From positions 1,712,501 through 1,776,500 of the forward strand of contig NZ_CP024311.1 of assembly GCF_002944315.1 (NCBI RefSeq): a stretch of 64,000 nt of DNA. The letters run 5' to 3'. The translations under genes were made by a program, and so were the position numbers. This DNA is from Rhizobium sp. NXC24 (lineage in GTDB: Bacteria > Pseudomonadota > Alphaproteobacteria > Rhizobiales > Rhizobiaceae). The first letter of the stretch is position 1. Each line of letters begins with the position of its first letter. Positions 1 through 5,873 of this stretch are shown here, one piece after another. The notes under the pieces were generated by a model that worked only from the letters and a program-made list of their open reading frames with translations, was not told the DNA's origin and searched no databases.

Positions 1-455
1 TGCTGTCTGTCGAGATGATTTGACCGCAAGGTATCGAGCCAGGCGTTGAGTTTGATGTCGCCGGTGTCGGCTACGGGGACATCTTTTCGAATTCCCCGTC
101 GTCTGTCGGCTTCGATTGGCGACACATACCAGGTGTCTGGGAGGCGAATAGTCCTATCTTCTATGAGGAGAACGGGCTGCCGGGTACTATCGGGGTCGAG
201 CAGCGATAAGACCGCATGGCCGCCCTGGTTCGACACAATTTCCCGATCTTTGTCCTTCAGATAAAGGTTTGCGAGCTCTTCAAAAAAAACGAGGCGATCG
301 AAGCTCCAAGCTGGGCCGAACGTGACCGTTCTGCTGAGAAATTGGTCGAAGCCGCTGCAAAATTCCGGATCGTCTTGGAACACTTCAATGAGCGACTGTG
401 GCAAATCCCTCAGCATTTCGCGGGCCAAGGCAACGCTCAAAGCCTCGTCGTTCAT
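1..455 (-). CDS. hypothetical protein, C-terminus off the left edge
   Basis: This reading frame starts with ATG at 455 and stays open to base 1, so only the first ~151 residues are present. The protein begins MNDEALSVALAREMLRDL and is acidic and probably mixed helix and strand. I recognise no domain. Its ATG overlaps the TGA stop of the 1359-codon upstream gene in an ATGA arrangement, the usual sign of translational coupling, so it is very likely the next gene of the same operon and its product may act with that protein. Start and operon membership are well supported by the overlap. The function is unknown. Confidence 0.75.
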   Translation of the reverse strand, partial: MNDEALSVALAREMLRDLPQSLIEVFQDDPEFCSGFDQFLSRTVTFGPAWSFDRLVFFEELANLYLKDKDREIVSNQGGHAVLSLLDPDSTRQPVLLIEDRTIRLPDTWYVSPIEADRRRGIRKDVPVADTGDIKLNAWLDTLRSNHLDRQ

Positions 456-3400
456 TGTTCCACCTCGCCTGAAGCGCTTCCACGTGCCAAATCTTGAAAC
501 ATCGCTCGAACGGAGGCGAGGATCGCATCGAACATCTCACTGTCCGTGTCGCGAACTCCTTCGAACACTCTATCGTCGAGAAACGCCAAAAACCTTCGTC
601 TCACGGCCAAAGGCAGCCCACCCACTGCGAACAAGAGTGACAGAAGCTGCTGGCGATAGCGTTGCAAAGCAATTTCCGCATCAGCTCGCTCAGGCATGAG
701 ATGCGCCCAGAAGCGGACGTCCAATAGGTCGAGGACCCAGGCACTTCGAACGCGAGAGACATCGTCCGCAATGCTCTCGGACCAGACGCCTTCCATTGCC
801 GAGATGAACGCATTGACCAAGGTGCCGAACCAAGGGTCTTCTTCTGGTATCTGCAACATAAGACCCATTCGAACGCTCTGAATATTTTCGCGCAGAGCCC
901 GAAGTTCGATCGATTCAAGAACTCGCCCGTCTACCAACGACAGGCCGCTGAGGCATTTTTCCGCTTCCTGAACTGAGACCGGAACGAAACAGAAGTTCGC
1001 CTGGCGTAGGCGAGTGATGGCCTCCAGACGGTCCTCATCCGAAAGCACATCCTCCGCCACCATCTGATTCATGATATCGATCGATGTTACGATCGGCGTC
1101 AAATGCTTCTCGTGCTCAATATTCTGCAGCCGATTGATGAACCGATCGTCGACGACTGCGGCGTCGGCTCTGCTCGCGATTTTGAGAATGGCGGTGGTCG
1201 GGTGGTCAGTTATGGCCTCATTTTCATTCGTTTGCTGATATGGAGCGATCTGGACCTTGCCACTTGATATAGCATCCCTTAGCACGATGCGCAGTTCAGC
1301 AACCTTCTTTTCCGTCTCGGCGGATATCGCTTCGTATCCTAAGAGAGACTCCATTTCCTCCAGTCCAATTGGGTCGACATACGCGGTGAGACCTGCGGCT
1401 TTCAGTCGGTCAATCACCTTTGCCTGGCACAGAAAAACTGTTGCCAGTTGATCCAAATAAAGAACCGCGTTTGGCGCTATCGTTAACTCGCTCGGTATTT
1501 GCTCCTCGTGAAAAGAAAGATAGTTGAGGGCCCGCGTCTCCTCGCGAGCCGTCAACTGTCCCAGCAAGCGCAGGGCTTTCACCACAGCGGAGCAGCTACA
1601 TATTGTTGCCTCATGACCTTGAAGATCTGCATTTTCGCCGGTCAAAGAGCCGACTTTGTGAATGGGATACGGCCGAACTACGAGATGCTGGCGACCTTCT
1701 TCCTCAGAGGCGCTTTCGGCAGCTTTGATAAGTGAGGCAAGGCTCTCACCAACCTCGCGAACCATCGAAATTTCGCCAGGGCGCAAAACATCGAATCGCT
1801 CCAGCTGCCTATCGTCCAAAAGTGATTTTAGCCACTTCGCCTGCACGACGCGGCTGGGCTGATGAAACCCCAGTTTTTGAGACTCCTCGAACAGCCATCG
1901 CATGAACGAATGAGGGATATGAATACGTTCAAAATGCTCGATGACTTTTGAAAGAAGGCCGGTGTAAACAAATACCAGAGCCGATGTGGCTTCAATAACC
2001 AAGGTACGCACATGCGGAACCAGCCCGGGTCGCGATCCAGAGAATGCTGGGATCAACGCTCTTTTCCGCACATCTTTCTCGTGCGTATTTTCCAGTGCGC
2101 GAACCAGCGTCAAATCCACGGTTGTACGATTGAGAAGCTGCGCCGTTAGGAGAGCTGGTGCATTTCCAGACGATAAAAGTTCCCAAGCCTTTGCCTGTCG
2201 TTCTTGCCACTGCGGTGCGAGATCGAAGATCTCCTGCATGGAGACACGCTTTAGCGGGCCGTCTTCGCCCGATAGGTCGGCGGCTGTGGCTAGCCACACG
2301 CCAACATCGGGATCGTCTTCCCAGTCACCGTTCGATGCTGTCTCGTAGCAAGCCAGTAGGATACCGGGATCGTCGAGTGCTTTTCGAGCCGCCTCCTTGA
2401 CGAGCTCTTTGCGTCGAGGGGCATTCAATTGGTGGGCGAGACGCCCCATCATTAGAAGTTCCCGGGCCGAACGCTCCTCGCGTTTTTCCCATTGTTGTTC
2501 CGTGAACGCGACCAGCGCGTCCCATTCGCCAGAGCAGATGTGGATGTTGAAAAACAGGTTTCGATCGTCGGCGACGTCGCGCTCTAAGCGCAGGGTTTGC
2601 AAGATTTCCTTAGCGCTCCGGAGGTCGCCCTGCCGGTAAAGTGCCCATCCAAGTGATGCGCGGGGGCTGTCAGCACTTTCAAAAATCTCGGGAGAGCTGC
2701 GAGAGAAATCGATCAGCTCTTGGTCTCTGTGTGTTACGGAGAGAGCATTAATGTAGTAGAGCGCGACGGTGAGATCTTTGCTCTTATCAAAAAGCGTGCG
2801 ACCATAATTCGCCACACGTGGCCAATCCTCTTGAGCCACCAGCGTCTCAACCAGCTGAATGAGATTTTCGACGGATTTGTCGGCCCTATAGCGACTTTCT
2901 AAATAACTGGCTGGATTTTCCTTAGCCTCGGCGATCCTGATGATGTCGGACCAGTATTCATATTTGGGTTTCGGCAGGCCGCTCTTCCGCATGGCTTCGA
3001 GAACAGCTTCCGCTTCCGGAATTTGATCCGATGAAATAAGCGCCTCAATTCTATGCCCACCGAAAACATTTGGGTCCATGTATGAGACGAGGACATCTCG
3101 ATTGGCAGCAAGATACGCGGCGTATTCATTCGCGGTCATCGCGTAGGGAGCTATGGCAAACTCCGCCAAGACAACATCCCTGGAAGCCTCGACCCTCATA
3201 ACTTTTTGCCGGGCAATTTCGATCTTTACACGTTCGATGTCCAACGGGATCGAGAGCTGGAGGGCGACCGGGACGTAGTGCAGGGATTCATCGGCTATTG
3301 AGAGCTTTTCGGCAATGAGCGCCAGCACGTTTTCGCCTTCATCAGGATCACGAAGACTTAGGAAAAGCGCCGTATCGCTTGCATCTTGAGCTTCAATCCG

Positions 3401-4531
3401 GCAGCCAAATTCCGTAGCGACAGCAGCTGATCTGTCGTAAAGGTTCTTGGCTTTTCGCAGTTGCTCTAGACCAAAGGCGTCGCTTTGTAGAAGCATACGG
3501 GGCGAATAGAATGGAGCAAATCGCAGTACGTTCGACTTCAATTCATCTGGTAAAATCTGCACCATGTGGGCGGATGCCGCCTGCCTCAATAGCTGAGGTG
3601 CGTCGACAAAATCCTGTTCACTCAGGGAATCGGCAAGCGCAAGGGCTTCTGGCCATGATTGCCGTTGCAGTAGGATCGCGAGAGCGTGAAGTCGTCCTTC
3701 CGCGTCGAGATCACCATATTTCCAATTCGTTGCTGCAAACCAGTTTAGAACTTCTTCCGGGTTCAGATTTCTAGACGCGACGAAGAATTTTGCGGAGAGG
3801 GCGGCCGGAGATTGAAGCCCATCTAATTCCCGAAGCGCATCAGCTTTCTTTCCTATGGCGACCAAGAGAAAAGCGCGAGCGAACGTGGCCTCTTGGGTCA
3901 TTGCCAACGCTAGCGATTGATCAATCAGACGCTGGACTTCTTCGCTCGGGGCTTTGACAGAGAGCACGCGCGCGCACCACGCCAAGCCGACCGCGCGCAC
4001 GATATTCGAGGCGCCCGAAAGCGCCCCTTCCTCCAGCTCAATTGCTAACCGCCTTGCCTCCTTGATGCTGTCAAACTCAGGTGAGTGTCGGGCCTTCCGG
4101 AGGCGTTCAATCTGCTTCCTTGCCGCGTCATCCAGGATAGGTAAAGATTGTGTCAGTACATTTGAGGCTTTTGCGATGGACTCAATGCGTTGAAATCCTG
4201 AAGACAGGTCCGTCTTCATACTTTCGAACGTCTGTTGCAGAACGAGCCCAGGCGCTTCCTGCGCAGGCGGTCGCTTCACGAAATCACGAAGATAGCGGTA
4301 GATATCGGCGCTTTTGCTGTCCGGCTTTACCATTGAGAGATGGTCTTCATCCAACGGTATCACCGCGAATGAGGGGGGCAGTCCAGGATCGGCGCTGTCT
4401 GGTTTGACAGGCGTGCCTTTCCGCCCGATTGGCTGCGTCTCCGTAAACACAATTCCTTCCAGGCCATGGCTTACACTGAAGCCTCTGAACCAGGTATTTA
4501 GTTCTCGTAGATGGGGATCATTGCGCGACAA
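452..4531 (-). CDS. large helical-repeat protein with PIN-like domain; N-terminus resembles the end of an alpha/beta-hydrolase, possibly 5'-truncated
   Basis: A 1359-residue product. Residues ~2-90 read like the last part of a SERAC1/esterase-type alpha/beta-hydrolase: a segment LRELNTWFRG, then SADPG, then PLDEDHLSMVKP with H64 in the place of the catalytic histidine. The nucleophile elbow that should come before it is absent. Residues ~110-1000 are helix-rich and TPR/HEAT-like. Residues ~1020-1175 look PIN-like: an early Asp in YLDQLATVFL, an Glu-rich segment, and ADAAVVDDRFINRL followed by TPIVTSIDIMNQM, as in DUF3368-type PIN proteins. No ATG is available upstream; the frame opens at TTG 4531 just after an in-frame TAA at 4544-4546, and the TTG lies in a small hairpin. 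It may therefore be a 5'-truncated gene or use an unusual start. It sits 171 bases after the ImmA/IrrE gene. PIN and hydrolase calls are inferences from motif pattern. Confidence 0.7.
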   Translation of the reverse strand: MSRNDPHLRELNTWFRGFSVSHGLEGIVFTETQPIGRKGTPVKPDSADPGLPPSFAVIPLDEDHLSMVKPDSKSADIYRYLRDFVKRPPAQEAPGLVLQQTFESMKTDLSSGFQRIESIAKASNVLTQSLPILDDAARKQIERLRKARHSPEFDSIKEARRLAIELEEGALSGASNIVRAVGLAWCARVLSVKAPSEEVQRLIDQSLALAMTQEATFARAFLLVAIGKKADALRELDGLQSPAALSAKFFVASRNLNPEEVLNWFAATNWKYGDLDAEGRLHALAILLQRQSWPEALALADSLSEQDFVDAPQLLRQAASAHMVQILPDELKSNVLRFAPFYSPRMLLQSDAFGLEQLRKAKNLYDRSAAVATEFGCRIEAQDASDTALFLSLRDPDEGENVLALIAEKLSIADESLHYVPVALQLSIPLDIERVKIEIARQKVMRVEASRDVVLAEFAIAPYAMTANEYAAYLAANRDVLVSYMDPNVFGGHRIEALISSDQIPEAEAVLEAMRKSGLPKPKYEYWSDIIRIAEAKENPASYLESRYRADKSVENLIQLVETLVAQEDWPRVANYGRTLFDKSKDLTVALYYINALSVTHRDQELIDFSRSSPEIFESADSPRASLGWALYRQGDLRSAKEILQTLRLERDVADDRNLFFNIHICSGEWDALVAFTEQQWEKREERSARELLMMGRLAHQLNAPRRKELVKEAARKALDDPGILLACYETASNGDWEDDPDVGVWLATAADLSGEDGPLKRVSMQEIFDLAPQWQERQAKAWELLSSGNAPALLTAQLLNRTTVDLTLVRALENTHEKDVRKRALIPAFSGSRPGLVPHVRTLVIEATSALVFVYTGLLSKVIEHFERIHIPHSFMRWLFEESQKLGFHQPSRVVQAKWLKSLLDDRQLERFDVLRPGEISMVREVGESLASLIKAAESASEEEGRQHLVVRPYPIHKVGSLTGENADLQGHEATICSCSAVVKALRLLGQLTAREETRALNYLSFHEEQIPSELTIAPNAVLYLDQLATVFLCQAKVIDRLKAAGLTAYVDPIGLEEMESLLGYEAISAETEKKVAELRIVLRDAISSGKVQIAPYQQTNENEAITDHPTTAILKIASRADAAVVDDRFINRLQNIEHEKHLTPIVTSIDIMNQMVAEDVLSDEDRLEAITRLRQANFCFVPVSVQEAEKCLSGLSLVDGRVLESIELRALRENIQSVRMGLMLQIPEEDPWFGTLVNAFISAMEGVWSESIADDVSRVRSAWVLDLLDVRFWAHLMPERADAEIALQRYRQQLLSLLFAVGGLPLAVRRRFLAFLDDRVFEGVRDTDSEMFDAILASVRAMFQDLARGSASGEVEQ

Positions 4532-4702
4532 GCCTTTTAAGGCTTAAGGCCAAAGACTCGAGATCTGATCTTAGCCACCTTTGGCTATCAATCTTTCATA
4601 TCTAACAGGGTGAAAGCCAACATCTCTCGTCCGGAAAACGGCAGGCTAGAGAACCTTCTTAGCTTAGACCGGTGAAAATCCTTTAGGCATGCGTCATTGA
4701 AA

Positions 4703-5311
4703 TTAGAGATCCAGTAAGCCTTGTTGTGTCGATCGCCTTGCCGCCAGACGTAGCGAGTGAACCTCCTGCCATTTCGACATCGTAATATTGCCCCGCGAGA
4801 TACGAAGGGGGACGCCGGTACGAGCGGCCAGCACTTCAGGCTGTTCGCGATGCTCAAACGCGATGTGTGGAGGGAGTAGAAAATGTCTGGCGAACATATC
4901 GGCCTGGTCTTCGGTGCTTTCCCTCGCATTCATGTGCTTGAACCGCTGGACCGCTCCGTTCGGATCTTTGTGCATCTGCACGTTTCGTTCACGATGTAAT
5001 AGGTAGTGGCCAAGTTCATGCGCCAGGACGAAGCGCGCTACAGGGTCTTCGTCGCAGGCAGCACGATAGAGGGAGCGCCTCACAACGATGCGATCGTTGT
5101 GAGGCTCGGTTACCGCGTCTTCCTTCAGCTCGTCATCGCGAACGATCACGAGCCTGAAGTTGGGATACCGTTCGACGAGTTTGAACTCTAGAATCGCTAC
5201 GATGTCGACCCGATCAACGTGCGCAATCTGGAACTCGTGTCGGTACTTCAGGGTTTCGGCCATCATCTCAGGGGTGGTCAGTCCTGTGGATGTGAAGTGG
5301 TCCTTTGCCAT
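4703..5311 (-). CDS. ImmA/IrrE family metallopeptidase
   Basis: The 202-residue product has the zinc-peptidase motif HELGH at residues 98-102 and the downstream third-ligand segment TEDQADMFARHFLLPP, with E134 the likely zinc ligand. This is the standard layout of ImmA/IrrE (DUF955, M78) proteases. Members usually cleave or inactivate a partner XRE repressor, as ImmA does for ImmR in ICEBs1. Here the gene overlaps the upstream XRE gene by 34 bases, which fits that partnership. The C-terminal third, after the metal site, is basic and has no domain I recognise. The site is complete, so the enzyme is probably active. The substrate and inducing signal are unknown; the adjacent XRE protein is the first candidate. 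Confidence 0.9.
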   Translation of the reverse strand: MAKDHFTSTGLTTPEMMAETLKYRHEFQIAHVDRVDIVAILEFKLVERYPNFRLVIVRDDELKEDAVTEPHNDRIVVRRSLYRAACDEDPVARFVLAHELGHYLLHRERNVQMHKDPNGAVQRFKHMNARESTEDQADMFARHFLLPPHIAFEHREQPEVLAARTGVPLRISRGNITMSKWQEVHSLRLAARRSTQQGLLDL

Positions 5312-5646
5312 TTTTCGCGATGCCTCTGCAAATTCACGATATTGGTCCCACCAGTTTCGGCGATGGTCGTCTCAGTCGTCGCTGCCGCGACCTTTGCCCG
5401 TTCGTTTCGCAGAATCTTTGCGAACGTTCCGACGTCTAGCCCGTAGAATTCGCAAAGCCGCTCACGATCGGTCTCGGAGCCGACGTCATCGCCATATTCA
5501 AGCTGACTGATGATGTCTTCTGTGACACCGGATTTTTCCGCCACTTCACGAAAACACCAACGGCTGGTCTGGCGCTGCCGACGGAGCATATCGCCGAAAA
5601 TCTTGAGTGCCGCCACAATACAAGGGTCTACTGTGTCATCATTCAT
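5278..5646 (-). CDS. XRE-family helix-turn-helix regulator
   Basis: The product is 122 residues from ATG 5646, which has GTGAGG seven bases upstream; an in-frame GTG at 5658 is a weaker alternative start. Residues ~15-75 form a Cro/cI-type HTH, with REVAEKSGVTEDIISQLE as the recognisable helix-turn-helix and a following acidic loop. The C-terminal tail is basic and polar. It overlaps the ImmA/IrrE peptidase gene, the common repressor-peptidase pairing, so autoregulation relieved by proteolysis is a reasonable inference. It probably controls the whole minus-strand cluster down to the left edge. DNA target sites cannot be identified from this window alone. Confidence 0.85.
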   Translation of the reverse strand: MNDDTVDPCIVAALKIFGDMLRRQRQTSRWCFREVAEKSGVTEDIISQLEYGDDVGSETDRERLCEFYGLDVGTFAKILRNERAKVAAATTETTIAETGGTNIVNLQRHREKWQRTTSHPQD

Positions 5647-5684
5647 TGATAACCTCACACGATAGGAAACGGTCTAAGAGTAAT

Positions 5685-5708
5685 AAGGCGCTCCTTACGA
5701 AGCGCCTT
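5685..5708 (-). terminator. hairpin between the small protein gene and the XRE gene
   Basis: A perfect 8-bp stem (AAGGCGCT with AGCGCCTT) encloses an 8-base loop. On the minus strand it follows the small protein gene by about 7 bases and comes before the XRE start. There is no good T tract after it, so it could be an attenuator or an RNA-stability hairpin rather than a full terminator. Confidence 0.5.
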
Positions 5709-5714
5709 CCTTAC

Positions 5715-5873
5715 TTATTTTCGACGGCTGGGCTCGCCTTTGGTGTCGCCGTAACCGGGCTTTGGAACGCGTTCGACAGTGGTTGTTCTCGGGCGGCGTT
5801 CAGCTTCCTTCACAGGAATGAACTGACCCGATTTTGAATCCCTGCCGACGTCGAACGTTTTTCTTTCAGACAT
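5715..5873 (-). CDS. 52-residue basic small protein upstream of the XRE/ImmA pair
   Basis: The frame runs from ATG 5873 to TAA 5715 and is preceded by a very strong ribosome binding site, AGGAGGG, six bases before the start. The product begins MSERKTFDVGRDSKSG and ends with TVERVPKPGYGDTKGEPS and a basic tail; it has no membrane segment or cysteine. I recall small proteins of this pattern (GRD..G.F..V.EA.RRP.TT.VE.VPKPG.GDT) being common in proteobacterial genomes, sometimes mislabelled as multidrug transporters. It lies upstream of the XRE gene on the same strand. The function is unknown. The coding call rests on the binding site and on the remembered family pattern. Confidence 0.75.
   Translation of the reverse strand: MSERKTFDVGRDSKSGQFIPVKEAERRPRTTTVERVPKPGYGDTKGEPSRRK

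Follow-up and report, generated by a model that had tools for sequence, protein, structure and literature searches.

Four minus-strand genes at the left edge of a 64,000-nucleotide stretch of the Rhizobium sp. NXC24 genome (contig NZ_CP024311.1, positions 1,712,501 to 1,776,500; hereafter the window, meaning the whole stretch analyzed) raise the question of whether a regulatory switch and a nuclease have been assembled there into one device. They encode an XRE regulator, an ImmA/IrrE metallopeptidase, a protein of 1359 codons (gene 3) and a fourth open reading frame (ORF) coupled to it (gene 4). The original prediction identified all four and took them for a possible defense module of unfamiliar arrangement, in which a sensor peptidase releases a toxic repeat-nuclease. 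Our analysis divides the cluster. Genes 3 and 4 are very probably a split, esterase-type member of the TPR-GreAB-C-PIN family, which would act on transcripts at RNA polymerase and whose esterase has been truncated, apparently recently, and the XRE-ImmA/IrrE pair is probably a coincidental neighbor.

Genes 3 and 4 are of a known kind, the family having been predicted by Kaur et al. 2021 (PMC8195603). In the section of that study on the system, TPRs, GreA/B-C and PIN make up an invariant core, predicted to counter invaders. The EAD10 domain can give way to any one of 13 effector domains, mostly encoded as stand-alone genes. Its authors propose that GreA/B-C engages RNA polymerase and that PIN cleaves the extruded transcript. 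In our searches the gene-3 family comprised 690 proteins above threshold, including the query, P0006, which is itself a fused protein.

Domain architecture of gene 3

Gene 3 (452..4531) lies on the minus strand, as do all window features given below, and is composed of a truncated esterase, a TPR region, an HTH domain and a double PIN. It matches two Pfam families tied to TPR-GreAB-C-PIN. HTH_upst_double_PIN (PF24407) covers residues 765-834 (2030..2239) with 70.7 bits against a cut-off of 27, and PIN-TPR-GreABC (PF20698) reaches 35.3 bits against a cut-off of 27.8 when summed over two stretches. The helical/TPR region takes up residues 131-764 (2240..4141). TPR-type repeats precede the PIN part according to both a consensus-TPR match and the predicted model, which covers residues 500-764 only and shows a TPR-like superhelix.

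The two PIN-like domains, whose boundaries are inferred, occupy residues ~840-985 (1577..2014) and ~1017-1160 (1052..1483). In the first domain the first acid is E847, and E883 is kept in all 59 of the 59 aligned rows; the acids of the second (D1027, E1059, D1128, D1129 and D1152) are present. The domains originally called in gene 3 by motif, namely a hydrolase C-terminal remnant, helical repeats and PIN, are borne out by homology, by the model and by PF20698, respectively. A search of PDB sequences with the gene 3 protein found nothing.

Gene 4 as the second half of the predicted system

Gene 4 overlaps gene 3 by 4 nt (452-455) and is cut by the left edge of the window, which holds its first 151 codons (3..455). 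The genome supplies the complete gene (L002:12545-14455, minus strand) of 636 amino acids. Its N-terminal beta-rich region is probably homologous to the Permuted_GreAB-C domain of relatives and is followed by a long helical repeat. The predicted structure, with a mean predicted local distance difference test score (pLDDT) of 86.3, is beta-rich at residues 47-94 and a helical repeat in the remainder.

The GreAB-C assignment of gene 4 is made because other relatives carry PF24388 (Permuted_GreAB-C). Precomputed matches to this family are found in 29 of the 51 listed gene-4 family proteins, gene 4 itself being counted among the 51. The curated cut-off is passed by P0015, P0058 and gene 4 of locus L062; P0014 and P0061 remain below it. 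The region of P0015 that matches PF24388 aligns to gene-4 residues 47-94. A side observation concerns P0013 (854 amino acids, Mesorhizobium), the closest relative of gene 4, which has an extra C-terminal stretch of ~210 residues with no Pfam match.

To examine the pairing, we scanned 130 gene-3 relatives, which include the window's own protein and were taken from the best 120 of the 690 proteins found with P0006 together with a search by gene 3. Of the 130, 24 carry a fused gene-4-like region and 106 are without it; since such fusions occur, genes 3 and 4 can be regarded as halves of one system. The fused proteins are long (at least 1900 amino acids in 22 of 24). In P0006 and P0008, both of ~2000 amino acids, the gene-3 core comes first and the gene-4-like region follows, and in P0008 the PF24388 match is above the cut-off.

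Neighborhoods agree with the fusions. Among 14 other loci of the module, a gene-4 relative adjoins gene 3 in eight, is fused to it in two (L010 and L066) and is undetected in four; with L013 and L014 counted as well, the two genes adjoin or are fused in 10 of 16 loci. All nine loci scoring >700 bits to the gene-3 profile have gene 4 adjoining or fused, and 4-nt overlaps of the two genes recur in L004, L011 and L061. The pair is also found, adjacent each time, in three plasmid records (Agrobacterium fabrum twice, in records of equal length, and Methylophaga thalassica). Two plasmid searches matched 28 and 118 records, but in most of these the match is to the esterase or HNH part only. No relatives were found in phages with P0006 as the query, or in viral contigs, where hits by pattern went unconfirmed.

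Variable N-terminal effectors

The N-terminal effectors of gene-3 relatives vary and include a DUF676 esterase, HNH, TIR, SMEK and a metallophosphoesterase. A GPRG-type HNH motif is present in 69 of the 130 relatives. In the profile of the gene-3 relatives, the N-terminal HNH part matches PDB 9om4, an HNH-bearing effector protein (E 1.9e-11), and, weakly, the SAVED domain-containing entries 8ysq, 7rwm and 7rwk (E 0.012-0.09). In contrast to the HNH/SAVED proteins, gene-3 relatives have no SAVED part; in the window copy an esterase remnant takes the place of the HNH.

Nineteen relatives measure 1260-1300 amino acids. Three of these resemble HNH proteins that have lost their beginning, one is without much of the front, and 15 (1263-1294 amino acids) have a short front peptide only, as does the protein of L004 (1267 amino acids). 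These 15 proteins and L004 suggest that an enzymatic effector may be dispensable for the core. Ten of the short relatives (e.g. P0084, P0103 and P0128) and L004 share an N-terminal peptide of the type SGDxSxNxxAGxD/N, and five others have one of the type IIARDI.DSTIIQ. Perhaps such peptides are an adaptor for a separately encoded effector.

Comparison with known systems and proposed mechanism

The resemblance to the system of Kaur et al. lies in a rapidly evolving core built of TPRs, GreA/B-C and PIN and combined with exchangeable N-terminal effectors, which the relatives studied here swap in the same manner as in the part of PMC8195603 that describes the system, and in the occurrence of PF20698, PF24407 and PF24388 among these relatives. 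The window locus differs in several respects. Its core is split into two coupled genes, the GreAB-C part is in the partner and permuted, the esterase-type effector is truncated, and an XRE-ImmA/IrrE neighbor, not mentioned in the section of PMC8195603 on the system, stands beside it. PIN-dependent anti-phage protection has been shown for the DefensePredictor systems DS-3 and DS-5, which, in the passages of PMC13092281 that describe them, are a one-protein split PIN and a PIN with an AcrIF4-like partner; it is by description only that they are set apart from gene 3.

In the mechanism proposed here, the superhelices of both chains could form a scaffold, and RNA polymerase could be the docking site of the permuted GreAB-C region of gene 4. 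The transcripts of a hijacked polymerase would be cut by the double PIN of gene 3, in which the second domain has its acidic set, and the pair would have a putative anti-phage role. The N-terminal enzyme, an esterase in the closest relatives, may be a second, cell-suicide arm. In the window copy this arm has been removed, apparently recently, with an independent XRE-ImmA/IrrE unit just upstream of the break, so that the copy is an RNase module without an effector or else has begun to decay. We hold the family assignment of genes 3 and 4 with high confidence and the mechanism with moderate confidence.

Several observations weigh against this interpretation. In a six-frame search of the genome PF20698 is found as a single stretch of 22.2 bits, below the cut-off of 27.8. 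The assignment of GreAB-C to gene 4 is indirect: gene 4 itself matches no Pfam family at E up to 1, and P0013 none at E up to 0.1. The PF24388 match of the fused P0006 has 19.5 bits, also below cut-off, and six distant loci (L064, L065, L067, L068, L013 and L014) have no detectable gene-4 region. Fold searches with genes 3 and 4 were swamped by helical repeats, leaving the PIN and GreAB-C parts untouched. We found no experimental test of the TPR-GreAB-C-PIN family, phage challenge included, in the open-access literature. At the A. fabrum locus L011, PADLOC matched neither of two neighboring genes.

Foldseek with the gene 4 model gave no match at E <= 0.001, the fold search otherwise returning helical repeats only; Gre factors and PIN proteins are absent from the fold-search rows listed, which does not exclude that they match. 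A PDB search with the gene 4 profile gave chance-like matches only. The Permuted_GreAB-C family search of 398 genomes of the phylum found nothing, not even in this genome, and is uninformative on absence.

Truncation of the esterase

The closest relatives begin with a full esterase. The motifs GHSLGG or THSLGG and GTPH or ATPH are found in P0002, P0003, P0005 and the proteins of L011, L061 and L062; P0004 has a later start and retains AHSLGG. The window protein begins at the LSRND motif and matches P0002 from residue 151 on. What is left (gene-3 residues 1-90, 4262..4531) derives from the C-terminal portion of a DUF676-like esterase located at the N-terminus. Approximately the first 150 residues are missing, the nucleophile motif among them, and the piece is catalytically incomplete. 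Esterase homology begins at window position 4543, and the start of gene 3 is uncertain, with two candidates: a TTG (4531) and the GTG of codon 28, which is the start used for the database protein P0001 (1332 amino acids).

A search of the whole genome with P0002 (E <= 0.001) gave matches that start only at residue 151, and tblastn with four relatives over 116 kb gave no credible match to the missing residues. An insertion of the XRE-ImmA/IrrE genes inside the esterase gene, with its front part further upstream, was considered and rejected, as no match to those residues was found in the 116 kb or in the genome. That gene 3 has a truncated esterase is held with high confidence. The remnant is 57% identical to P0002 and 61% to P0003, a Mesorhizobium protein, and these two are 60% identical to each other over the same region. 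The absence of extra drift points either to a recent loss or to some remaining constraint; judged by these identities, the loss of the esterase arm in this genome is apparently recent.

It is quite possible, though less likely than not, that the damage goes further: a deletion would have taken the start, promoter and effector of gene 3 and left it silent or without function. The break at the N-terminus falls within the esterase domain, the gap upstream has stops in all three frames, and by eye no clear start of gene 3 is kept. A second damaged family member is found at L063:2225-6400, where a gene-3 relative is broken by an in-frame stop. However, 1359 and 636 codons are still open in the two genes, the acids of the second PIN-like domain are present, and the relatives with only a short N-terminal peptide (15 of 130, and L004) likewise have no visible effector domain.

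The XRE-ImmA/IrrE pair

The ImmA/IrrE gene (4703..5311) encodes an M78 metallopeptidase with the motif HELGH (Peptidase_M78, 36.4 bits) and overlaps by 34 nt the XRE gene (5278..5658; HTH_31, 40.3 bits), whose likely start, by eye, is the ATG at 5646. Upstream of XRE are a terminator-like hairpin (5685..5708) and a 52-amino-acid ORF (5715..5873), which is strongly conserved together with XRE and IrrE in the congener G821. The coupling or close spacing noted for the four genes takes the form of an overlap between XRE and IrrE and between genes 3 and 4, and of a gap of 171 bp (4532-4702) between IrrE and gene 3. No minus-strand promoter or terminator was called in this gap, and the layout neither shows nor excludes a single four-gene operon.

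The original prediction had expected the four genes to occur together in other genomes. They were not found to do so. A motif search for HExGH (HE[LFMIA]GH) proteins was negative in all 14 other loci of the module, among which L004, L063, L065 and L068 are short stretches of 6.5-9.3 kb. BLASTP with XRE and IrrE gave no match in eight non-window loci, six of them shared with the 14. In G821 a 1.3-kb block with the 52-amino-acid ORF, XRE and IrrE is present without genes 3 and 4, at 74% DNA identity. An IrrE match is found in six of 60 genomes of the genus, this one included, and is close (75%) only in G821 besides. These neighborhoods and the G821 block led us to reject the four-gene unit: in the loci examined the XRE-ImmA/IrrE pair is independent of genes 3 and 4 and lies outside the conserved module. 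The suggestion of a defense module is thus supported as a predicted conflict module that combines helical repeats and PIN with a linked partner gene, without the XRE-ImmA/IrrE pair as a member. The G821 block (L041) adjoins genes resembling, by eye only, an IS630-type transposase and Tn7-like TniQ/TnsC genes.

For a peptidase that releases a toxic protein there is a general precedent. The parts of PMC13373217 that deal with CapH+CapP report that such pairs control adjacent immune operons. Like them, the window pair joins a DNA-binding repressor (XRE) and a peptidase (HExxH, M78-type) upstream of a predicted immune operon. A controller of this kind, in which an ImmA/IrrE activated by single-stranded DNA cleaves an XRE repressor upon DNA damage, might govern genes 3 and 4 here, and the pair lies on the same strand at the short distance given above, with no intervening minus-strand terminator called. 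The PADLOC capP model gives IrrE 46.7 bits. However, this score is not specific, because RmrA models also match IrrE (up to 30 bits), and, unlike CapH+CapP, the window pair has no recurrent association with the module in the loci examined and stands alone in G821. No inverted repeat was found in 4531-4760, and there was no sign of an operator common to XRE and gene 3: a single 9-mer occurs both upstream of XRE and in the gap ahead of gene 3, against a mean of 0.8 in shuffled sequences. We therefore consider CapH+CapP-like control of genes 3 and 4 unlikely. Nothing in our results ties a sensor peptidase to gene 3, and confidence in an XRE-IrrE switch over it is low. It is more doubtful still that the truncation was an adaptation, in which an XRE-ImmA/IrrE switch responding to DNA damage took the place of the built-in esterase trigger to give an inducible, effector-less double-PIN module targeting RNA polymerase; if true, this would be a new wiring of the TPR-GreAB-C-PIN system.

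A VapBC-like toxin-antitoxin pair with gene 4 as the antitoxin, suggested by a PIN domain and a partner coupled by 4 nt, is highly improbable. VapBC consists of a small VapC and a small antitoxin, whereas the proteins here have 1359 and 636 amino acids, and gene 4 is unlike VapB in that 24 of the 130 proteins scanned join a gene-4 relative and the PIN protein in one chain.

Distribution and genomic setting

Gene 3 was found in one of 61 genomes searched, and a scan of genome contigs with a single protein gave two loci. With this genome counted in each case, PF24407 occurs in three of 385 genomes of the class, four of 398 of the phylum and six of 397 of the order. The GC content of positions 1-5873 is 53.6% against 58.5% for the window, and is as low or lower in three of 117 sliding 5.9-kb segments, this one included, in agreement with the AT-rich block noted earlier. 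The adjoining end of nrdJ is present in 59 of 60 genomes of the genus. Flanks were fetched for seven of those genomes; five share a flank, and this genome, G821 and G809 differ. This genome shares 535 bp of the nrdJ flank with G809, and pieces of the flank shared by the five congeners lie on another contig of it. These data fit an accessory locus of genes 3 and 4 that would have been moved horizontally.

Some distant relatives lie directly beside defense-type genes, upstream in both cases: HmaB/HmaC-like genes in L066 and type I restriction-like genes in L067. In L066 (264-13091) the HmaB- and HmaC-like genes end 21 bp before the fused TPR-PIN-GreAB protein, and this may be an Hma-type locus with the fused protein as an added part. 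A distant, caspase-annotated Leptolyngbya relative (L014:896-11038) is downstream of a multiubiquitin/ThiF/DUF6527 cluster.

Beyond the left edge of the window, a convergent gene for a 391-amino-acid protein with a weak PcfJ-like match below cut-off (L002:11250-12425) ends 119 bp from the end of gene 4. Further left, ~2.8-5.4 kb from window position 1 (L002:8555-11167), a 198-amino-acid ORF is followed by a 662-amino-acid AAA+/peptidase M41 (FtsH-like) protein, which also scores on IetA models.

Implications

The window copy is ordinary in kind, as a member of a predicted immune family, and unusual in being split and decapitated. As a conserved system, the four-gene switch is best dropped. Genes 3 and 4 tie an unannotated family of 636-amino-acid proteins to a double-PIN protein, each supplying one half of a predicted immune machine. 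The truncated copy offers a natural case of the core without an effector, and the pairing of the two genes makes the GreAB-C/PIN idea, that transcripts are cut at RNA polymerase, testable with a two-gene construct.

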